Notes under the pieces: model-generated
The model's input: the letters and a program-made list of their open reading frames with translations, nothing else
What the model was told of the DNA's origin: nothing
The model's database searches: none
Source: Thermococcus sp. 4557
GTDB taxonomy: Archaea; Methanobacteriota_B; Thermococci; Thermococcales; Thermococcaceae
Assembly: GCF_000221185.1 (NCBI RefSeq)
Contig: NC_015865.1
Location: 868,001 to 932,000, forward strand
DNA length: 64,000 nt
Direction: 5' to 3'
Translations under genes and position numbers: made by a program
Shown: positions 23,041 to 60,050 of the stretch, one piece after another
Position numbering within the stretch: position 1 is the stretch's first letter
How the letters are laid out: each line of letters begins with the position of its first letter

Positions 23041-23441
23041 CTGCCTGAGAACATTATAGAAAAGGCATTTGATCTTCCGCCAGCGCTCCTTGGGAAGCGA
23101 AGCTTCTCGAGGTGTTGAGGCAAAGCCTCAACATGCGAAGGAAGCTTTTGGAAAAGCTTCACCAAAAGTTGGTAGCTCTTCATCCAAGGGTTCGAATAGG
23201 AGAGATTTTACTCACAAGCCCCCACAGACTTTCAGAAGAGAACACATCAGATAAAGGCATCAACAGGGGTTTATTCCCTCTTGACGCCCTTTGGGCGTCG
23301 ATTTAAAGTTAAACCCGTACTCAAAGAGCAAATCGAAAAGTTCTCATACCCAAAACTGCCAGTAGGTAGGAAAATCATTAGAATTCAGCTTTCCAAAAAG
23401 AGCTACCAACTTTGATGAAACTTTTGCTTGGCAAAAGTTTC
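23041..23441 (-). repeat. Modular noncoding element, copy 1 (inverted relative to copy 2)
   Basis: Read on the minus strand from the tRNA-Arg end outward, it holds in order: an AAACTTTTGC/GCAAAAGTTT hairpin (23417-23441) that begins two bases after the encoded CCA; CTCTTTGAG plus a GGGTTTAAC box; a GACGCCC/GGGCGTC hairpin (near 23281-23302); a GATGAAGAGCTACC plus AACTTTTGGTGAAGC box with a CTTTTCCAAAAG stem (near 23140-23182); and GGCGGAAGATCAAATGCC (near 23063-23085). The same blocks occur in the same order in copy 2 on the other side of the tRNA pair. No coding frame is convincing. Confidence 0.65.
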
Positions 23442-23443
23442 TG

Positions 23444-23521
23444 TGGCGCCCCGGCGGGGATTCGAACCCCGGACCTCGAGGTCCGCAGCCTCGCGCCCTA
23501 TCCAGACTAGGCCACCGGGGC
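23444..23521 (-). tRNA. tRNA-Arg (anticodon GCG)
   Basis: Complete cloverleaf: acceptor GCCCCGG/CCGGGGC, anticodon stem CGAGG/CCTCG with loop CTGCGGA, T arm CGGGG-TTCGAAT-CCCCG, discriminator G and an encoded CCA. It reads CGC and CGU. A TTTATAAA box lies 30 bp before it. A strong hairpin begins two bases after the CCA. Confidence 0.95.
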
Positions 23522-23550
23522 ACTTGCCAGCTAAACCTTCCAGAGAACGC

Positions 23551-23558
23551 TTTATAAA
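23551..23558 (-). promoter_or_regulatory. TATA box of tRNA-Arg(GCG)
   Basis: TTTATAAA on the minus strand, 30 bp before the mature 5' end. Confidence 0.65.
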
Positions 23559-23584
23559 TTTAACCGTCCGGCGGGACCGAAAGA

Positions 23585-23593
23585 TTTATAAAT
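23585..23593 (+). promoter_or_regulatory. TATA box of tRNA-Gly(GCC)
   Basis: TTTATAAAT, about 35 bp before the tRNA-Gly. It stands back to back with the tRNA-Arg TATA box, 26 bp apart, forming a divergent promoter pair. Confidence 0.65.
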
Positions 23594-23627
23594 CAACCAC
23601 AGGTGAGTATGTAACGGGCCGCAAAGT

Positions 23628-23705
23628 GCGGTGGTAGTCTAGCCTGGTCTAGGACAGCGGCCTGCCACGCCGCTGGCCCGGGTTCAAATCCCGGCCACCG
23701 CACCA
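23628..23705 (+). tRNA. tRNA-Gly (anticodon GCC)
   Basis: Acceptor GCGGTGG/CCACCGC, anticodon stem GCGGC/GCCGC with loop CTGCCAC, T arm CCGGG-TTCAAAT-CCCGG, discriminator A and encoded CCA. It reads GGC and GGU. A hairpin of the modular element begins seven bases after the CCA. Confidence 0.95.
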
Positions 23706-23712
23706 TTCTAAC

Positions 23713-24105
23713 AAACTTCGCGCAGGCGAAGTTTGATCAAGGTTTGTAGTTCCTCGCAAAGTGTAAGTTCTTAGGTGGTTTCTATGTCAAATGGGTATTT
23801 AAAAGACGAGAACATATAAGGTTGCGTCTCTTTTTGAGTGGGTTTAACTTCAAATAGACGCCCAGAGGGCGTCAGAAGGGGGTAAACCCTTCTAAGGGTT
23901 TTTCAAAGTATTCTCGCTCAAAAAGAATTAATGACTGGAATTGAAAACCAGCTCACCCCGATATCCCCAGTGAAGAACTACTAACTTTTGGTGAAGCTTT
24001 TTCCAAAAGCTTCAGCTCCGTTCTCACTATCGTTCGAACGTCCTGGCAGATGGCGGAAGAAGAGTGCCATTCTAAGAATTGGCAAGTTCTGGAGTGAGTT
24101 TATCC
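23713..24105 (+). repeat. Modular noncoding element, copy 2
   Basis: Blocks in order on the plus strand: hairpin AAACTTCGC/GCGAAGTTT followed by GATCAA (23713-23740); CTCTTTTTGAGTGGGTTTAA box (near 23827); GACGCCC/GGGCGTC hairpin (near 23859-23875); GTGAAGAACTACTAACTTTT plus a GAAGC...CCAAAAGCTTC stem (near 23972-24013); GGCGGAAGAAGAGTGCC (near 24052-24068). It is homologous to the reverse complement of copy 1, and together they frame the divergent tRNA pair symmetrically. No gene is visible up to 24298. Confidence 0.65.
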
Positions 24106-24263
24106 TCAAGTTGCCCTTGTGATGCCAGAACATAGATGAAACCTATTGAAAAAAGTTTATTTCGAGGTTAAATCAAGTTTAAGTTGCAGTTAAACAGTGC
24201 CCGACTTATTTTTGCTTTTCGGAGAGAAAAATATTTTTGGCCAACCTTTTCCAAAAGGCCAAG

Positions 24264-33287: not shown

Positions 33288-33365
33288 GGACCGGTAGCCT
33301 AGCTAGGATAGGGCGGCGGCCTCCTAAGCCGCAGGTCCGGGGTTCAAATCCCCGCCGGTCCGCCA
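33288..33365 (+). tRNA. tRNA-Arg (anticodon CCT)
   Basis: Acceptor GGACCGG/CCGGTCC, anticodon stem GCGGC/GCCGC with loop CTCCTAA, T arm CGGGG-TTCAAAT-CCCCG, discriminator G and encoded CCA. It reads AGG. Confidence 0.95.
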
Positions 33366-33526
33366 TCACACAATCTTCTGATGACGTCTGTTCTCCCAGG
33401 TTTGATCCGATGATGTTTTGTCCTGGCGTATTGTGCAATGATTCATTTCATTCAGGATATGCCCTAAGAAACCGACTGATGGCCCAAAAGAGGATTTCAA
33501 GAGAAACCTGGAAGAAAAAAGCAGAA

Positions 33527-33826
33527 TCACCCTTTGTGGAATCCCAGCGCAAACCCTCCAACGAAAGCGGCGGTGCCGGGCAGGAGGGCCATGAACTTCT
33601 GGCCCGCGGTCATGATTTCGTGCGTCCAGTCGCCAACGAGATTGAAGAGCCTGTCCTTATCGATTATGAGAACACCCTTCTGTTCAAGCCACAGCAAACT
33701 GGCAACGTAGGCACCGATGAGGGCAAGCGCCAGCTTCATCATCTTCTTGACGGCATAGCCGGTTACAAACCCAACCACGGCTCCAACTCCCATATCGCCC
33801 ATCATGGCGTTCAGGTCGAACTCCAT
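33527..33826 (-). CDS. FUN14 family membrane protein
   Basis: 99 residues. Glycine-rich hydrophobic segments at about 10-30 (GVGAVVGFVTGYAVKKMMK), 31-48 and 78-95 (GTAAFVGGFALGFHKG) match the FUN14 family. In eukaryotes FUNDC1 is a mitophagy receptor; the archaeal function is unknown. GGGTGGTAGA precedes the ATG. Divergent from a PadR regulator across a 107-bp gap that holds a palindrome, so PadR may control it. Confidence 0.85.
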   Translation of the reverse strand: MEFDLNAMMGDMGVGAVVGFVTGYAVKKMMKLALALIGAYVASLLWLEQKGVLIIDKDRLFNLVGDWTHEIMTAGQKFMALLPGTAAFVGGFALGFHKG

Positions 33827-33878
33827 TCTACCACCCTAAAATCCTTGCACTTCATCGGATAAAAACCTGTTGCCAAAA

Positions 33879-33893
33879 CGTTTAAATTAAACG
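33879..33893. promoter_or_regulatory. Palindrome between FUN14 and padR
   Basis: CGTTTAA-A-TTAAACG, perfect 7-bp arms around one base, midway in the divergent promoter region. A plausible operator for the adjacent PadR protein. Confidence 0.4.
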
Positions 33894-33933
33894 AAGCCAA
33901 AATATTTACAGACCATAAAAGTCGGGTGAGAGC

Positions 33934-34263
33934 ATGACAACCCCCATGGAAAGGCTCAAGAACAAGATAACCAAGGAGGTTCTCTGGCTGTACATACTCC
34001 GGCTACTTCGGGAGAGGCCCATGTACGCCTACGAACTGAAAGAGAGGATACGGGAGGCGTTCAACTTCGAGCCCGCGACCGTCAGCTCCTACGTTGTCCT
34101 CTACAAGCTCGAGAAGGAGGGGTACGTTACCGCGGAGTGGCAGGAGAGCCAGACGGGGAAGCCCTCAAGGAAGTACTACAAACTCACTCCCGAGGGAGAG
34201 AAGCTTCTGGAGGACGGAATAGCCTTTCTTGAGGACATGGTCGCGAAGCTGAAGGGCGCCTGA
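33934..34263 (+). CDS. PadR family transcriptional regulator
   Basis: 109 residues. Winged helix: LYILRLLRERPMYAYELKERI, SSYVVLYKLEKEGYV (recognition helix) and the wing RKYYKLTPEGEKLL, plus a short C-terminal dimerisation helix. PadR proteins repress neighbouring stress or transporter genes. GGGTGAGAGC precedes the ATG. A terminator follows. Confidence 0.92.
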   Translation: MTTPMERLKNKITKEVLWLYILRLLRERPMYAYELKERIREAFNFEPATVSSYVVLYKLEKEGYVTAEWQESQTGKPSRKYYKLTPEGEKLLEDGIAFLEDMVAKLKGA

Positions 34264-34264
34264 A

Positions 34265-34289
34265 GGGCGACTGCCCGCAAATAATTTTT
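34265..34289 (+). terminator. Terminator of padR
   Basis: GGGC/GCCC hairpin with 4-base loop one base after the stop codon, then ATAATTTTT. Confidence 0.5.
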
Positions 34290-34368
34290 GGGCTTCTGAA
34301 GGTTCCCAGGGTTTCCCAGAAAAGCATAGAATTGAGAAACGTAGAAATAGGAAGCAAAGATAGGGACT

Positions 34369-34527
34369 TCAGCGTCCCATTCCACCACGCGGCTCTCTCG
34401 CCTTCGGGCGGAGACCCTTGTAGCCGCACTTCCTGCACTTCTTGGCCTTCCACGGGTTAGTGGCACCGCAGCGCATGCACACGTACTTCCTAAAGATTCT
34501 GGCCTCAGCCTCGGGGAATCTCGCCAT
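34369..34527 (-). CDS. rpl40e: 50S ribosomal protein L40e
   Basis: 52 residues, zinc-ribbon protein with cysteines at 17, 20, 31 and 34 (CMRC...CRKC) flanked by [14 protein letters not shown] and [12 protein letters not shown], the standard archaeal L40e. GAGGTGATCACG precedes the ATG, and a GCTTTAAAAGCC box lies just before it at the 3' end of tRNA-Leu. Binds the large subunit near the factor-binding site. Confidence 0.95.
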
Positions 34528-34585
34528 CGTGATCACCTCATGATCTTAAACCGTCTTCACCTACACGACTCGGCTTTTAAAGCTT

Positions 34586-34673
34586 TGGTGCGGGGGACGG
34601 GATTCGAACCCGCGTAGCCCTTCGGCAGCGGATCTTAAGTCCGCCCCCTTTGGCCAGGCTCGGGCACCCCCGC
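34586..34673 (-). tRNA. tRNA-Leu (anticodon TAA)
   Basis: Class II tRNA with acceptor GCGGGGG/CCCCCGC, anticodon stem GCGGA/TCCGC with loop CTTAAGA, a long variable arm, T arm CGGGT-TCGAAT region, discriminator A and encoded CCA. It reads UUA. An ATTTTTAACG box lies upstream, next to the end of rps2. Confidence 0.95.
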
Positions 34674-34713
34674 GCGAGGGAGTGTAAAGCGAGGGGCGTT
34701 AAAAATCTTCCCC

Positions 34714-35319
34714 TCAGGTCCTGATAATCCTCATCTCGAAGTCCTCGACCGGAACCTTGAAGTCCTCCCTGCTCTCGATCTCCTTCCTGTTGTAGAGTAT
34801 CTCCCTCGCGAGGATCCAGTAGATGAGAGCAAGGGCCTTCCTACCCTTGTTGTTGGTCGGGATCGCAACGTCGACGTAGCTGAGGAAGTTCTCGGTGTCG
34901 ACGAGGGCCACTATCGGTATGCCGATCTCGATGGCCTCCTTCATGGCCTGGTGGTCGGCCCTCGGGTCGGTGACGATGAGGACGTCCGGCTCCATGAAGT
35001 TCTTGACCTGCGGGTTGGTCATGGTTCCCGGGAGGAAACGGCCGGGTATCGAGCGGACGCCGGTGACGTCGCCGAACTTCTTGACCGGCTTCTGTCCGTA
35101 GAGCCTGACGCTGACGGCGAGAATGTTCTCGGGGTCGAACTTGGCAAGGAACTTGCCGGCGACCCTGAGCCTCTCGTCGGTCTTCCTGACGTCAAGCACG
35201 TAGAGGCCGTCCTGCCTGACGCGGTAAATAAACTTCTTCATGTCCTGGGTCTTCTGCTGGGTTCCGATGTGGACACCGGCAGCAAGGTACTGGTCGAGTG
35301 GAACGAGGTATTCCTCCAT
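34714..35319 (-). CDS. rps2: 30S ribosomal protein S2
   Basis: 201 residues, archaeal S2 length. Starts [19 protein letters not shown] after GGAGGTGTGAAGA, with [21 protein letters not shown] and [13 protein letters not shown] in the Rossmann-like fold. Last gene of the S13-S4-S11-rpoD-L18e-L13-S9-rpoN-rpoK-enolase-like run; only 13 bases after the enolase-like gene. Confidence 0.97.
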
Positions 35320-35332
35320 TCTTCACACCTCC

Positions 35333-36358
35333 TCATCCTTCAAAGGTTATTATCCTACCCCTTTCACCCAAATCTTCGGCTATGCGAATCAGCTCGTTCA
35401 GCTTGGCGATGGAATCCTTGCGGAGCACCATCGCCGGACAGCGAAGGCCCACTGCAACGTGGGCCAGGGCCTCGTCGGAGGACTCGTAGCGAGCCTCCGC
35501 GAGGATGGGGGTTATCCTCTCCGACTTCGCGTCGTTCACGAGGTTGTATAAGTCGGTGAGCGTGCCTAGGTTTATCGGCTTTATCGACAGGGCGTTGTAG
35601 TAGCGCCTGTCCAGTATGTCCTTCTCGCGGAAGAGGTGCTCGCCGTCAACGAACACCTCGTGGGTGCCGGCTATCAGCTCGAGGAACAGCTCCTCGTCAC
35701 CGAGAGGCTTTATGTAGGCCACGTTGTTGTCCTCGACTATGGAGAGCACTTCCTCCATATCCATTGGAACCCTCTGCACGAGGCCGAGGGCAACCTCGAG
35801 GCCGAGTTCGTCGGTTGCTTTTTCGGTGGCCTTAGAGAAGGCCTCCACCGTACCGGCCTCGGCATGCTCAAGGACCTTGTTAACCGCATCGACGACGTCG
35901 GTTATCTCCATGAGGTCCCTGACCATGACGTAGTAGTCGAAGGCCTCACCGCTCGCAATCTCAAGGATCGGAACCGGAAGCTCGGTGGTGAAGGTTCCGC
36001 CGATGTAGTTGTAGAGGGGCATCCTCTTGACGCTTGCGGCAGCTTTGGCGACCGCTATTGAGACCGCCAGCGCGGTGTTGGCCCCTATGTGGCTGAAGTT
36101 CTCGGTGCCGTCTATCTCCCAGAGGTAGCTGTCTATGAGCTCCTGCTCGCTGGCATCGAAGCCTATCAGCTCGGGCCCAATTATCTCGTCGACCTCGCTG
36201 ACCGCCCTGTGGGCCTCGGCTATGTAGAGGCTCGGGTTCTCGTCCACGGGCGCGGCAAAGCGGCCGAAGCCGGAGCTCGTCACGACGTCTACTTCAACGG
36301 AGTATCTGCCACCCTTGAGCACCGCAACCCTGCCGATCACGTTCTCTATCACGGTCAT
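35333..36358 (-). CDS. Enolase-like protein lacking catalytic residues
   Basis: 341 residues against about 430 for true enolase. Fold similarity is clear: NVIGRVAVLKGGRYSVEVDV at the start, GTENFSHIGANTALAVSIAVAKAAA, PLYNYIGG and a TIM-barrel part with LSIKPINLGTLTD (keeping the lysine). However the catalytic loop that reads SHRSGETED in enolase is AEARYESSDE here, and the late CRSERLAKYN reads VLRKDSIAKLN. It is unlikely to make phosphoenolpyruvate. It sits between rpoK and rps2, as I recall for other Thermococcales, so a role tied to transcription or translation is possible. Confidence 0.8.
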   Translation of the reverse strand: MTVIENVIGRVAVLKGGRYSVEVDVVTSSGFGRFAAPVDENPSLYIAEAHRAVSEVDEIIGPELIGFDASEQELIDSYLWEIDGTENFSHIGANTALAVSIAVAKAAASVKRMPLYNYIGGTFTTELPVPILEIASGEAFDYYVMVRDLMEITDVVDAVNKVLEHAEAGTVEAFSKATEKATDELGLEVALGLVQRVPMDMEEVLSIVEDNNVAYIKPLGDEELFLELIAGTHEVFVDGEHLFREKDILDRRYYNALSIKPINLGTLTDLYNLVNDAKSERITPILAEARYESSDEALAHVAVGLRCPAMVLRKDSIAKLNELIRIAEDLGERGRIITFEG

Positions 36359-36364
36359 CTCTCA

Positions 36365-36538
36365 TCAGCTCGGCCTTATTACGGTGAGCGGGATTATCCC
36401 TTTCTCAAACTCGAGCATCGCGGCGTCGAGCGGCGTGATTCCTTCCGGGACGTCGATGAGTATGGGCGCACCCATCGCTATCTGGAGGGCCCTTGCTCCG
36501 ATGATACGGGCCTTCTCAAAGCGGGTATACTTAAACAT
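36365..36538 (-). CDS. rpoK: DNA-directed RNA polymerase subunit K
   Basis: 57 residues (the typical size) from the ATG at 36538 after GGTGGTAGTC; an upstream extension is rejected because it precedes that site. FKYTRFEKARIIGARALQIAMGAP is the omega/Rpb6 core that clamps the largest subunit. Six bases separate it from the enolase-like gene. Confidence 0.96.
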   Translation of the reverse strand: MFKYTRFEKARIIGARALQIAMGAPILIDVPEGITPLDAAMLEFEKGIIPLTVIRPS

Positions 36539-36590
36539 GACTACCACCCCTGCCTTCCACATTCCGCATCAAACATCCATTGCAAACATT

Positions 36591-36668
36591 TGGTGGGGCC
36601 GCCGGGATTTGAACCCGGGTCTCCGGCACCCCAAGCCGGGAGGATAGACCAAGCTACCCCACGGCCCC
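36591..36668 (-). tRNA. tRNA-Pro (anticodon GGG)
   Basis: Acceptor GGGGCCG/CGGCCCC, anticodon stem CCGGC/GCCGG with loop TTGGGGT, T arm CCGGG-TTCAAAT-CCCGG, discriminator A and encoded CCA. It lies between rpoN and rpoK on the same strand; a GTATTAAAAA box overlaps the end of rpoN. Confidence 0.95.
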
Positions 36669-36684
36669 CCAAGAAGTGCGGTTT

Positions 36685-36882
36685 TTAATACACCCTGTAC
36701 TTCATGGCGCTGTCCACGAGCTCGACGTGGCTGAGGAGGGTCCTCCTGCAGCAGTACCTTTCGATCCCGAGGTCGTCGAGCACCCTCTCGGGATCCTCGC
36801 CCTTCTCAACGCGGGCCTTAAACTCGTAGTATTTGTCTCCTATGACCTTTCCACACGTGAAGCACCTGACGGGGACTATCAC
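36685..36882 (-). CDS. rpoN: DNA-directed RNA polymerase subunit N
   Basis: 65 residues from a GTG at 36882 after AAGGTGATACGG, matching the usual RpoN length (a GTG nine bases earlier is inside that site). Zinc-binding RCFTCGK and [10 protein letters not shown] motifs give the CX2C...CC ligands of Rpb10. Downstream of rps9. Confidence 0.95.
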
Positions 36883-36920
36883 CCGTATCACCTTCTCGAA
36901 TGAATATTAAAGGAAAGCCA

Positions 36921-37328
36921 TCAGCGGTAGGACTTCTGCCTCTTGGCGCGCGGACCCTTGGTCGAGCGGTTGGGCTTGTGCATCTCGGTTCTCCTGCTGT
37001 CGCCGACGAGCATGGTCCTGTCGTACTTCATGAACTTGTCCTTGAGGTTCATGTCGTTGGTCCACTCAACGAGGGCCCTGGCTATGGCAACGCGGGCAGC
37101 CTCGGCCTGACCCATGAAGCCTCCGCCCTCGACCTTGACGTCGATGTCGACCTTGCCAACGATCTCCTCGCCGGCAATGACGAGCGGCTCCATGATGGTG
37201 AAGCGTGCTATCTCCGGCTCGATTATCTCAACCGGCTTGTGGTTGATCCTGACGCGACCCTTTCCTTCCCTGATGGTGGCCCTCGCGATGGCCGTCTTCC
37301 TCTTACCAGCAGTCTGGATGACCTTCAT
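36921..37328 (-). CDS. rps9: 30S ribosomal protein S9
   Basis: 135 residues with [31 protein letters not shown] and the basic C-terminal [11 protein letters not shown] tail that reaches the P-site tRNA. GAGGTGAGAGAAA precedes it. Follows L13 by 11 bases. Confidence 0.97.
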
Positions 37329-37339
37329 TTTCTCTCACC

Positions 37340-37768
37340 TCAGAACTTTCCACCGAGGAACTTGGCAACCTCTCCAACGGTAACGTACTTCGGGGTTGCG
37401 ATCCTCGAGCTGTGGGCCTCGCTTATGGTCTCAAGCTCCCTGCCCTCGAACTCCTTCGGAACACCGACGTAAACCTTGAGCCTCTTGAAGGCCTTCCTTC
37501 CGCGGTCGGTCTTCCAGGGGAGCATTCCCCTGACGGTTCTCCTGACTATCTCGTCGCTCCTCTTCGGGTAGAACGGACCCTTCCTCGGGTTGGTCCTGGT
37601 CCTCAGTCCGGTCCTCTGCTTGTACTTGGCGAAGATGTCCTCGCGGTTTCCGGTGATGATGGCCTTCTCGGCGTTGACAATGACGACCTCCTCGCCCTCG
37701 AGGAGCATCTTGGCGACCTTCGAGGCGAGCCTTCCGAGTATGAGTCCTTCAGCGTTAATTATCCTCAT
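37340..37768 (-). CDS. rpl13: 50S ribosomal protein L13
   Basis: 142 residues, archaeal L13: [51 protein letters not shown] site precedes the ATG. Placed between L18e and S9 in the alpha-type operon. Confidence 0.97.
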
Positions 37769-37774
37769 GGCCCA

Positions 37775-38140
37775 TCACTCCATTATGATTACTCCACTAC
37801 CCTTCGGGTTTCTCTCGATGAGCTCCTCAATGGTGAGGACCTCTCCACCGGCCTCGACTATCTTCTTCTTGGCCGTCTCGCTGAACTTCCAGGCGGCAAC
37901 GGTGACCTTGTGCTCGAGCTTTCCTGCACCGAGGACGCTTCCGGGAACGATGACGGTGTCGCCGTCCTTGGTGTAGCGGTTGATCCTGCTGACGTTCACT
38001 TCAGCCCTCTGCCTCCTGGGCCCCTCAAGGCGCCAGGCTATGTCCTTCCATATCTTAACCCCTTCCTCGTTAGACTTCTTTCTGAGGTAGCGGATGAGCC
38101 TCCTCAGGTTGATGTCAGTGGGTCCGGTTCTCTTGACCAT
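37775..38140 (-). CDS. rpl18e: 50S ribosomal protein L18e
   Basis: 121 residues from the second ATG (38140), six bases after GGAGGT; the ATG at 38146 abuts that site. [21 protein letters not shown] and [13 protein letters not shown] are typical of this L15-like family. First gene after tRNA-Leu(CAG). Confidence 0.95.
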
Positions 38141-38208
38141 GAACATACCTCCTTAACACTCTCTCGCAGGTGGGAAACCGACAGGTCCAACGGGGTGAGC
38201 GTAAATAC

Positions 38209-38296
38209 TGGTGCGGGGGCGGGGATTTGAACCCCGGAACCCCTACGGGACGGGACCCTGAATCCCGCGCCTTTGGCCAGGCTCGGCTACCCCCGC
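38209..38296 (-). tRNA. tRNA-Leu (anticodon CAG)
   Basis: Class II tRNA: acceptor GCGGGGG/CCCCCGC, anticodon stem CGGGA/TCCCG with loop TTCAGGG, long variable arm, T arm CGGGG-TTCAAAT-CCCCG, encoded CCA. It reads CUG. It lies directly behind rpoD in the operon, its 5' end two bases from the rpoD stop. Confidence 0.93.
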
Positions 38297-38297
38297 G

Positions 38298-39080
38298 TCA
38301 GTCCGCTAATTTATGGAGTTCGCTTATAAATCTATCGCTCTTCCTCATGAGGATTTTGAGGGCTATGGTCACGATTTCCTCAACCGGAAGTTCCCCATTG
38401 GTCTCGACGGTGAAGACAAAGGCGTTGGGTACGGTCTCCTCCCAGATTTTCTCCCCCACGTAGGCGTCAAACTTCCGTGGAAGGTAGAACGCCTTGATCG
38501 TGGTTATAACGAGCTCCCCGTCGGTCTCCTCCGCCGGAAGACCGCGCCTCTCGGCGAGCTCCTTGAGCTCCTTCCAGTCGGGAACTTCCTTGCTAACGTG
38601 AATCCTGGTGAGGTACTTGTAGTAGACGAAGCCGGGCTGCCACTTGGCGTGGTCCTTTCCGCGGCCGAGTTTTGCGTAGGCGTTAAACGTAAGCCTCTGA
38701 CCCTCGGCGAGCTTGACTATCGGGATGTTGGGGTTGGCGGGCTTCACGCCCTCATCGCTGCTCTTAAGGTCGCCGGAGTAAACCATTCCGGGGCCCTCTG
38801 CCTCGAGGGAGAGCGTAACCGTGTACTCGTCAAGCTCAAGTGAATCGAGGGAGAACCTCTCGTGGGGAGTGGTGAGCGGTATCATACCCACCCTGTGGGC
38901 GATTATCTCATCGAAGAGGGCGGAATCGTTCTCGAAGAACTCAACCTCATCCACCGCAAAGGTCGGGACGTCCGCGAGGATGGTCCTCCTCAGGGCGTTG
39001 GCGAAGGGCACATCAACTCCCTCAACGATGAACTTAATCGAGTCCTCCCTTTTCTCAAGAATCTGAAACTTTGGCTCCAT
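38298..39080 (-). CDS. rpoD: DNA-directed RNA polymerase subunit D
   Basis: 260 residues from the ATG at 39080 after GGTGATGCCG. Rpb3/alpha N-terminal fold: [24 protein letters not shown] and the C-terminal [18 protein letters not shown] dimerisation helix that pairs with RpoL. It contains no cysteine, so the Fe-S domain found in RpoD of some archaea is structurally present at most without its cluster. Confidence 0.96.
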
Positions 39081-39110
39081 CGGCATCACCAAAAAAGAAG
39101 TTGTTGGGGG

Positions 39111-39533
39111 TCAGACGCGCCTGCCCCTTCTTCCGCCCTTCGGCCTAGTGCCGTCGTGCGGAATCGGGGTGGCGTCCTCAACCCTTCCGATCCTGAGGCC
39201 GGCCCTGGAGAGGGCACGGATGGCGGCCTGGGCACCCGGTCCCGGGCTCTTGCTCCTGCTTCCACCGGGGGCGCGGACCTTGATGTGGACTCCGGTGAAG
39301 CCCTTCTCCATGGCCTCCTCGGCGGCCCTCCTGGCGGCTATCATAGCCGCGTACGGGGAGGGCTCGTCCCTGTCGGCCTTGACGACCATACCACCGCTCC
39401 ACCTGCTGACGGTCTCGGCCCCGGTGAGGTCGGTGATGTGGATGATGGTGTTGTTGTAGGAGGAGTAGATGTGGGCAACTCCCCACTTCTCCTTCTTCTT
39501 AAGGTTAACCTGCTGCTGAACTTCCTCGCTCAT
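39111..39533 (-). CDS. rps11: 30S ribosomal protein S11
   Basis: 140 residues: [43 protein letters not shown] and the C-terminal [16 protein letters not shown]. The start overlaps the S4 stop by four bases. Confidence 0.97.
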
Positions 39534-40072
39534 GAGGCCTCACCCTGCTTAGCCTGTTCAATAACCATCCTCTCGGGGTGGCTCTCCTTAGCGAAAGGAG
39601 AGGCCTTCGAGTAGGTTATGGTGTCTTCCTCCTCCCTGAGGACGAGGTAGCCAGGAGAGCGTATTATCTGGCCGTTTATCTCGATGTGGCCGTGAACTAT
39701 GAGCTGCCTGGCCTGTCCGATGGTCCTGGCGAGGCCCTTCTTGTAGACGAGAGTCTGAAGGCGCCTGTCGAGGACGTCCTCAACCGTCAGGGAGAGAACG
39801 TCATCGAGAGCGGCATCGGCCGGAAGGAGACCGAGCCTGTTGAGCCTCTGGAGGAGCTGGGCCCTCTCAACCTCGGCCTGCCTGCCGCGGGCGGCAAGGA
39901 GGCGCCTGGCCCTACGCCTGAACTCCTTGAGCTGGGTCTCGTGCCTCCAGAGCTCCTTCTTGTTCTTGAGGGCGTACTTCTTCATGAGGACTCTCTCACG
40001 GTCGAGCCTCTCCTTAATCCAGGGGTGAGAGGGAGTCTCGTACCTCTTCCTCTGCCTCTTAGGGTCTCCCAT
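39530..40072 (-). CDS. rps4: 30S ribosomal protein S4
   Basis: 180 residues: [18 protein letters not shown] start, S4 RNA-binding domain [42 protein letters not shown] precedes the ATG. Primary 16S rRNA binder. Between S13 and S11. Confidence 0.97.
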
Positions 40073-40082
40073 CTACATCACC

Positions 40083-40532
40083 TCACTTCTTCCTTCTGCT
40101 CACACCGAGGGTGCTGCCGTGCCTGAAGTTCGACCTGGTCCTCTGGCCGCGGAGCGGGAGGCCGAGCTCGTGCCTTATGCCGCGGTAAGCGCGTATTCTC
40201 CTGAGCCTGTTAACGTCCTCACGCCAGGCCATGACGAGCTTGGCGGTGATGAGGTGCATGTCCTTGCCGGTCTCGTAGTCCTTCTGCCTGTTAACGGCCC
40301 AGGCGGGTATACCGTGGGCGATCGGGTCCTCGAGCACCTTCTCAATCTTCTTGACCTGCTCGTCGGTCAGGTAACCGGTCTTCATGTACGGGTCGATTCC
40401 TGCAACCCTGAGCACCATCGTAGCGAAGTTTATGCCTATACCCCTGATGCCCGTGAGGGCCCATCTCAGCTGCTTATTTCCGTCCAAATCAACTCCCGCT
40501 ACACGGACGATGTGTCTGAAGTTGTCCGTCAT
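40083..40532 (-). CDS. rps13: 30S ribosomal protein S13
   Basis: 149 residues: [26 protein letters not shown] helix-two-turns-helix, and the basic [25 protein letters not shown] tail. GGAGGTGTATTCGTA site. First gene of the S13-S4-S11-rpoD block; tRNA-Ser is just upstream. Confidence 0.97.
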
Positions 40533-40571
40533 TACGAATACACCTCCATCTCAATCCTTCAGAGAGGATTT

Positions 40572-40658
40572 TGGCGCCGGGACGGGGATTTGAACCCCGG
40601 TGTCCAAGCGGACACGGGCTCTCAAGGCCCGCGCCATCCCAGGCTAGGCGATCCCGGC
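40572..40658 (-). tRNA. tRNA-Ser (anticodon TGA), overlapping the methyltransferase gene
   Basis: Class II tRNA: acceptor GCCGGGA/TCCCGGC, anticodon stem CGGGC/GCCCG with loop CTTGAGA, long variable arm, T arm CGGGG-TTCAAAT-CCCCG, discriminator G and encoded CCA. It reads UCA. Its first 15 bases are also the last five codons, including the stop TAG, of the upstream methyltransferase on the same strand. Confidence 0.94.
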
Positions 40659-59675: not shown

Positions 59676-59688
59676 CTATTTAAAAGGC
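59676..59688 (-). promoter_or_regulatory. Promoter of the S10-type ribosomal run
   Basis: GCCTTTTAAATAG on the minus strand, 56-68 bp before the SPOUT start. It may drive the whole downstream run of ribosomal genes. Confidence 0.5.
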
Positions 59689-59744
59689 TTTCGAACCGTT
59701 CCACCCTTTTTTGGGTTGGGAGGTATACAAATTTTTTGCAAAGC

Positions 59745-60050
59745 AAACTTCGCCTTCGCGAAGTTTGATCAAAGCTGGCATGCCTTTTAAATGAGCCAGT
59801 TTTTACGCAGGTTTATTCTTACTTTCGCCGGGTTTTTACTAGTGTTCTCCATTTTTAGCGCCCTTCGGGCGCCGATATTGAGGCTGAAACAGTTTTATTG
59901 AATTTTATTTGATGCCAAACCCATCATGAGCTTTCACTTCAGTGATGCACTACTAATTTTTTGCCCCTTAAAGAGAAGGACTCTTTCGCCAGCCTTTCCT
60001 AAAGGCGGGGTGCAAAGTTTCACCAAAATGTTCTAAAACCGACATCACAG
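59745..60050 (+). repeat. Modular noncoding element, copy 3 (degenerate)
   Basis: Same block order as copy 2: AAACTTCGC/GCGAAGTTT hairpin followed by GATCAAAG (59745-59773, stem identical to copy 2, loop different), GCGCCC/GGGCGC hairpin (59858-59873), CAGTGATGCACTACTAATTTTT box (near 59940), then short GC hairpins and CAAAGTTTCACC. It fills most of the 486-base gap between the SPOUT gene and the small ORF after RNA ligase. No coding frame is supported. Confidence 0.55.

Follow-up and report, generated by a model that had tools for sequence, protein, structure and literature searches.

A family of roughly palindromic, 300-bp noncoding elements located behind tRNA genes in Thermococcaceae

The window analyzed here, a stretch of 64,000 nucleotides from Thermococcus sp. 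4557, carries a genuine, divergent pair of tRNA genes according to both ARAGORN and Rfam. These are tRNA-Arg(GCG) at 23444..23521 on the (-) strand (RF00005) and tRNA-Gly(GCC) at 23628..23705 on the (+) strand, and each is followed by a noncoding element. Copy 1 (23141..23441, (-) strand, 301 bp) begins 2 bp behind tRNA-Arg and is a type I element with a GTAGCTC box and a GACGCCC centre. Its (-) strand features are a tRNA-proximal outer hairpin, GAAACTTTTGC..GCAAAAGTTTC (23417..23441), a proximal box, ATCAAAGTTGGTAGCTCTT (23398..23416), a central hairpin, GACGCCC..GGGCGTC (23283..23299), and a distal inverted repeat of the D type composed of the box GAAGAGCTACCAACTTTTGGT and the hairpin GAAGCTTTTCCAAAAGCTTC (23141..23181). 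Copy 2 (23712..24013, (+) strand, 302 bp) begins 6 bp behind tRNA-Gly and is a type I variant with GTAGTTC at both ends. On the (+) strand it has a proximal outer hairpin, CAAACTTCGC GCAG GCGAAGTTTG (23712..23735), a proximal box, ATCAAGGTTTGTAGTTC (23736..23752), and a second box, GAGAAC (23808..23813), whose mirror ATTCTC lies at 23910-23915. A third box, GGGTTTAAC, and its mirror GTAAACCC (together 23840..23889) flank the central hairpin GACGCCC AGA GGGCGTC (23857-23873), and a D-type distal inverted repeat made of GAACTACTAACTTTTGGT and the hairpin GAAGCTTTTTCCAAAAGCTTC closes the element (23975..24013).

The two copies match each other with E = 3.4e-12 in a DNA search of their own genome. 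A sequence-only reading of this DNA had described five blocks in the same order in copy 2 and in the reverse complement of copy 1, and the alignment agrees with that order. Blocks 1 to 4 indeed belong to one element of about 300 bp, whereas block 5 is part of another element type. Block 4 is in part an inverted copy of block 1, and the two therefore represent the terminal inverted repeats of a single element. Block 5 corresponds to a double-hairpin module (TGTTGAGGC..GCCTCAACA and GAAGC..GCTTC) plus a GCGCTGGCGGAAGAT box, and is the start of a truncated type IV element that follows copy 1 (23064..23140, (-) strand). Elements of type IV start with GGCGGAAGA..TGCC and often follow an element of the first type, or occur alone behind tRNAs. 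A second, degenerate type IV element with this start follows copy 2 (24014..24263, (+) strand), its right end being placed provisionally by comparison with loci L018 and L070.

The third copy mentioned in the same reading was also located, at about 59744..60030 on the (+) strand. It has a GGCATGCC box and a GCGCCC centre, and it follows a promoter-like sequence rather than a tRNA. Elsewhere in the window, at 33288-40658, there are five more tRNA genes (Arg, Leu, Pro, Leu, Ser) with no element behind any of them; four of the five are on the (-) strand, spaced about 1.5-2.4 kb apart.

The same architecture recurs throughout a family whose members are roughly palindromic, dyad-symmetric, noncoding, about 300 bp long, and located directly behind tRNA or other small-RNA genes. 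Reading away from the tRNA, the first half consists of an outer hairpin, the box SATCAAAGTTYGTRRYTC, a spacer, GAGAAC, GGGTTTAAC and the central GACGCCC/GGGCGTC hairpin, and the mirrored second half consists of GTAAACCC, GTTCTC, GARYTAC.AACTTTTGGT and a second outer hairpin. The hairpin and SATCAAAGTTYGTRRYTC box thus form terminal inverted repeats that face each other, and the distance from end to end is 270-309 bp in nearly all of about 150 loci. End boxes are matched within an element (GTGATTC/GTGATTC in 36, GTAGCTC/GTAGCTC in 26 and GTGGTTC/GTGGTTC in 7), with no cross-type pairs of these three boxes among the elements typed, and each end-box type accompanies a single type of centre hairpin. 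After APC correction, the top-ranking covariation is that of a mirrored box pair, and most of the other signals are accounted for by this subfamily structure.

In 19 of 22 variants, the outer hairpins retain 10-11 perfect pairs despite the occurrence of several different arm sequences. Among 12 distinct variants, 99.2% of cells are paired, both sides have changed in 10 cells, and there are no one-sided changes and no G.U pairs. The covariation score of these hairpins was reached by none of 500 shuffles. The compensating changes noted earlier between the two copies (AAACTTTTGC against AAACTTCGC) are real, and they are seen again across the family. The loop occurs either as CCTGCGC or in the opposite orientation as GCGCAGG, a pattern expected from hairpin inversion or template switching. 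Some copies carry double-hairpin (T-shaped) inserts within their outer hairpins (L013, L014, L015, L066 and window positions 23092-23134), and inserts such as CGTCGAGCTTTGCTCGACG plus GGGACGATAGTCCC are common to copies from different genomes. A separate repeated module, GTACTCTCAAACCCCCGGAGTGGGGC..GCCCCACAACCCC..CTCCGGGGGGCTAACGCCCCCACACCCCCA, is present between consecutive elements at L126, L015, L016, L161 and L165.

Copies are numerous outside the window as well. When copy 2 is used as a DNA query, it yields 31 matches in its own genome (2.01 Mb), and R1, a covariance model built on the 47-nt element end, finds about 48 ends there at a cut-off of E <= 0.001. Across genomes this search recovers tens of copies per genome, contrary to the empty search that the sequence-only reading had named as a result that would refute it. 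R1 matches are present in at least 58 of 61 same-genus genomes and in at least 18 of the 33 other genomes of the family, including at least 3 of 3 in genus g8, at least 7 of 13 in g10, at least 7 of 7 in g11 and at least 1 of 1 in g12. Of the six genera of Thermococcaceae, five thus carry elements. Among the best candidates scored, R1 had no match in any of the nine genomes of genus g9, and none in the same-genus genomes G003, G018 and G058. Whatever role the element has is not essential, since it is absent from these three genomes and from all nine of g9. In genera of the class that are more distantly related, the DNA query found no match, a pattern scan of named genome contigs produced matches solely in Thermococcaceae, Thermococcales or Thermococci metagenome-assembled genomes (MAGs), and searches of the plasmid, phage and IMG/VR collections returned no match.

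The position of the elements relative to tRNA genes follows a strict rule. In the genome of Thermococcus sp. 4557, 13 of 44 tRNAs have a correctly oriented element end 5-11 bp past the Rfam 3' boundary, compared with 0.017 expected from random placement, and no end is located upstream of a tRNA. This count covers types I-III; about 6 more tRNAs are followed by a type IV element as read from the sequence. The association persists in a set of MAG elements picked by pattern and not by tRNA, where a tRNA immediately precedes 39 of 66 full elements and several more are one or two element lengths away, being the second in a row. Across the loci as a whole, elements follow 26 different tRNA species and begin 2-12 bp past the tRNA end, in a fixed orientation relative to the tRNA. 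For example, the D-type end, GGTGAAGCTTTTTCC, is tRNA-proximal in 0 of 65 elements and distal in 32 of 65. Genes downstream of the elements are co-directional and convergent about equally often (31 versus 30), which leaves a simple tail-to-tail insulator unsupported.

Elements without a tRNA are instructive exceptions to this rule. One row of such elements begins directly behind the C/D RNA sR36. At L160 and L091, the element begins behind a two-hairpin RNA-like sequence that ends in TTACA and has a TATA-like box upstream. This sequence, at about 935-1015 of L160 (C1:562235-562315 of the same genome as the window) with an ortholog in L091, has no Rfam match, and by eye it resembles an H/ACA guide RNA. 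A conserved promoter-like sequence, TTTAAAAG, together with a small hairpin and a T-run, precedes the third copy in the window as well as related copies in L143, L123 and L157. In the window, these features span 59677-59742, where the hairpin is CCACCC TTTTTT GGGTTGG, and they possibly mark an undescribed small-RNA gene. If the L160/L091 and third-copy sites are small-RNA units, as we infer, then the common denominator of all sites appears to be the 3' end of a small-RNA transcription unit.

Such a position could mean that the hairpin serves as a maturation or termination signal in forming the 3' ends of tRNA transcripts, with the remainder of the element a passenger sequence. Between about one third and one half of tRNAs are followed by a hairpin at 2-12 bp, and a T-rich stretch follows the box on the proximal side. 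There is also a parallel in another hyperthermophilic archaeon, Methanopyrus kandleri, in which around half of all tRNA genes have, about 10 bp downstream, a palindrome of unknown function that has been proposed as a tRNA 3'-maturation signal (BMC Genomics 2017, 18:27; PMC5217627). Both systems place a short hairpin a few bp behind many tRNAs and at comparable frequency, given the 13 of 44 tRNAs with types I-III plus about 6 with type IV here. However, the M. kandleri palindrome is a lone motif of about 20 bp (CGTTA N9 TAACG) reported only from that organism, and it is unrelated to the AAACTTTGC..GCAAAGTTT sequence found here. Moreover, the Thermococcaceae hairpin belongs to a 300-bp element, of which it forms one end and which also has an opposite end, boxes in its interior and phased tracts. 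A processing signal would leave this conserved layout and the phased spacers unexplained, T-runs of four or more occur at just 21 of 60 proximal ends, and more than half of all tRNAs, along with the empty sites in close relatives, manage without an element. A 3'-end signal is thus an improbable account of the family.

Archaeal tRNA 3' ends are common integration sites, so elements in this position might instead be scars of plasmids or viruses that were once integrated there. Yet the elements start past the tRNA end and hold no tRNA fragment, 26 tRNA species are used, and the phage, plasmid and viral collections hold no homologue. We regard this origin as very improbable.

The sequence-only reading had also suggested that the hairpins reflect a conserved structure, possibly that of an RNA. 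An RNA of about 300 nt, either a tRNA 3' trailer co-transcribed with the tRNA and freed by RNase Z or a stand-alone structured species, would fit the location 2-12 nt behind tRNAs and also behind a C/D RNA. Single copies do fold far better than shuffled sequences (z = -5.73), with up to about 103 pairs between left and right halves, and RNAalifold favors the tRNA-sense strand (-13.1 versus -2.8). However, the other strand folds almost equally well (z = -5.56), because any inverted repeat will give strong folding of both strands. The sense-strand excess traces to a small number of invariant G.U positions in the D-type end, and rare variants show no excess of G.U over A.C (9 versus 18). The decisive comparison concerns the arms of each copy, which in an RNA stem should be the best partners for each other. 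Within a subfamily, cognate and non-cognate arms pair with -19.05 and -18.08 kcal/mol in the spacer (p = 0.12), and with -12.66 and -12.48 in box 1 (p = 0.7). An RNA stem is therefore unsupported, since a copy's own arms pair no better than those of other copies, and the long-stem RNA model is set aside on this ground and on the few fixed positions that underlie the strand asymmetry.

The covariation claim thus divides into two parts: the local hairpins do covary, but covariation in support of a shared RNA fold is not found. There is no copy-specific compensation in the long-range arms, and the outer hairpins are purely Watson-Crick, without the G.U intermediates. Rfam identifies nothing in the window besides the tRNAs and an eL15-Euryarchaeota ribosomal protein leader, which lies at 1890-1933 on the (-) strand (38.7 bits) and is unrelated to the elements. 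Passages of the T. kodakarensis primary-transcriptome paper (PMC4247193) on this subject describe no such RNA class. Overall, a structured RNA has only a slim chance of being the correct explanation.

The spacers, which are otherwise unconserved, do have one constrained feature, and it is a property of the DNA. Their AA/TT steps show a periodicity of 10.0-10.5 bp, with amplitudes of 0.0369+-0.0060 in subfamily 1, 0.0467+-0.0056 in subfamily 2 and 0.0601+-0.0135 in the copies of the window's own genome, compared with 0.0018+-0.0007 for all controls and 0.0000+-0.0018 for controls of similar GC content. Flanks downstream of tRNAs that lack an element gave an amplitude of -0.0075, versus 0.0196. 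Type IV-like stretches are phased in seven of eight cases (0.023-0.058), and the eighth gave -0.013. This helical A/T phasing is a result for the family and not for any single copy, as single copies are modest and not outstanding (z of about 2-4) in a periodicity scan of the whole window. Phased A/T tracts characterize curved DNA as well as DNA that is easily wrapped around histones. The element resembles intrinsically curved DNA in having its A/T tracts in helical phase (about 10-10.5 bp), and on this likeness its DNA should be curved.

The history of individual sites provides additional clues. The divergent tRNA pair is kept in nearly all 61 genomes of the genus, with the element optional on each side, and the occupancy of a given orthologous tRNA site differs between close species. 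The idea that copies might mark synteny breakpoints does not hold here, as the neighborhood is conserved with or without the element and the flanks beyond it can still be aligned. Some empty sites keep element remnants (L059), so losses are common. Orthologous copies are 80-93% identical, comparable with their flanks, and thus the elements are not evolving like free intergenic DNA. The copies are dispersed, and they are mosaics that have exchanged parts. In genome G023, the copies behind tRNA-Arg(TCG) and tRNA-Val (L024 and L046) share a right half of about 175 bp with one indel. The breakpoint falls at the central hairpin, beyond which the left halves and flanks differ, pointing to gene conversion of half an element. 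On these points the data bear out the sequence-only reading, in that the family is modular, old, found across the genus and linked to tRNA 3' ends, and shows no recent duplication.

Dispersal of this kind makes a MITE-like, non-autonomous transposon the main rival explanation. The element would depend on a lost or unseen enzyme, insert by the 3' ends of tRNA and small-RNA genes, and confer no benefit on the host. The elements are short, noncoding and multi-copy, with terminal inverted repeats, a fixed length, a narrow insertion window and several subfamilies that each have matched ends. Their distribution is patchy, orthologous sites differ in presence and absence, and one MAG carries full-length copies that are 82-89% identical and share no flanks. 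Nevertheless, a target-site duplication of 3-8 bp accompanies none of 82 elements. Dispersed copies never exceed about 92% identity, the best full-length pairs without shared flanks being about 82-92% identical. No coding version or autonomous element with the same ends was found in about 150 loci, nor was there a match in the plasmid, phage or IMG/VR collections. The phased tracts maintained in the spacers also count against a transposon. The Y1 transposase (PF01797) is absent from the window's own genome, occurs in 25 of the 94 genomes of the family and does not track the element, which excludes a Y1/RAYT enzyme as the general partner. The earlier proposal of a non-autonomous mobile element that uses tRNA sites thus keeps some plausibility, but target duplication, near-identical copies and the Y1 link all fail to appear, and we consider it rather unlikely.

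Known repeat families offer partial parallels. Enterobacterial REP units are about 35-40 bp long and are tied to a Y1-type RAYT transposase. Like REP/BIME sequences, the elements described here are mosaic, intergenic palindromic units that occur in tens of copies, often as inverted pairs at transcript 3' ends, but they are about 300 bp long, coexist with no Y1 gene in the window's own genome and are strictly linked to tRNA or small-RNA genes. ERIC and other MITE-type bacterial repeats are likewise noncoding and form long, imperfect palindromes bounded by terminal inverted repeats, from which the present family differs in its lack of target duplication and near-identical copies, its fixed tRNA-3' orientation and its A/T phasing. 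The yeast Ty1/Ty3 and Dictyostelium TRE retrotransposons similarly prefer the flanks of tRNA and comparable small-RNA genes. They are autonomous and take their guidance from the Pol III machinery, whereas the element here is 300 bp of noncoding archaeal DNA. By kind, the elements are interspersed palindromic repeats, yet they lack defining features of both REP/BIME and MITE families. No earlier description of the family was found in the open-access literature, where the M. kandleri palindrome comes closest.

From its anatomy, its phasing and the failed RNA test, we infer that the element acts as DNA. The explanation we prefer, tentatively and with somewhat less than even confidence, is that this Thermococcaceae element is a bent nucleoprotein site of about 300 bp, located behind the 3' ends of small-RNA genes and spread by recombination. 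A bent complex would form on the phased tracts and symmetric boxes, immediately behind a strongly transcribed small-RNA unit, with an archaeal histone, a TrmBL2-type protein or another nucleoid protein as the candidate binder. Such a complex might mark or seal the end of the unit, acting as a boundary or as a roadblock to transcription or SMC, and copies would spread through ectopic recombination or gene conversion with no classical transposase. The identity of the binding protein and the benefit to the host are guesses.

A more specific version, which we judge to be unlikely, would make the element an archaeal chromosome-boundary site. Here, a histone array or TrmBL2 bound to curved sites would stall SMC or transcription, and the sites would be copied by recombination. 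In T. kodakarensis, TrmBL2 reportedly stalls SMC at tens of loci in a manner that depends on DNA structure.

Regardless of which mechanism applies, what had looked like scattered leftovers behind archaeal tRNAs becomes one defined and searchable family that obeys a strict position rule and has a DNA property that can be measured. If nucleoid proteins bind the bent nucleoprotein site that we prefer, its copies would be candidate cis-acting sites for work on Thermococcus chromatin. If the element proves to be mobile, it would provide an archaeal case of tRNA-targeted insertion.
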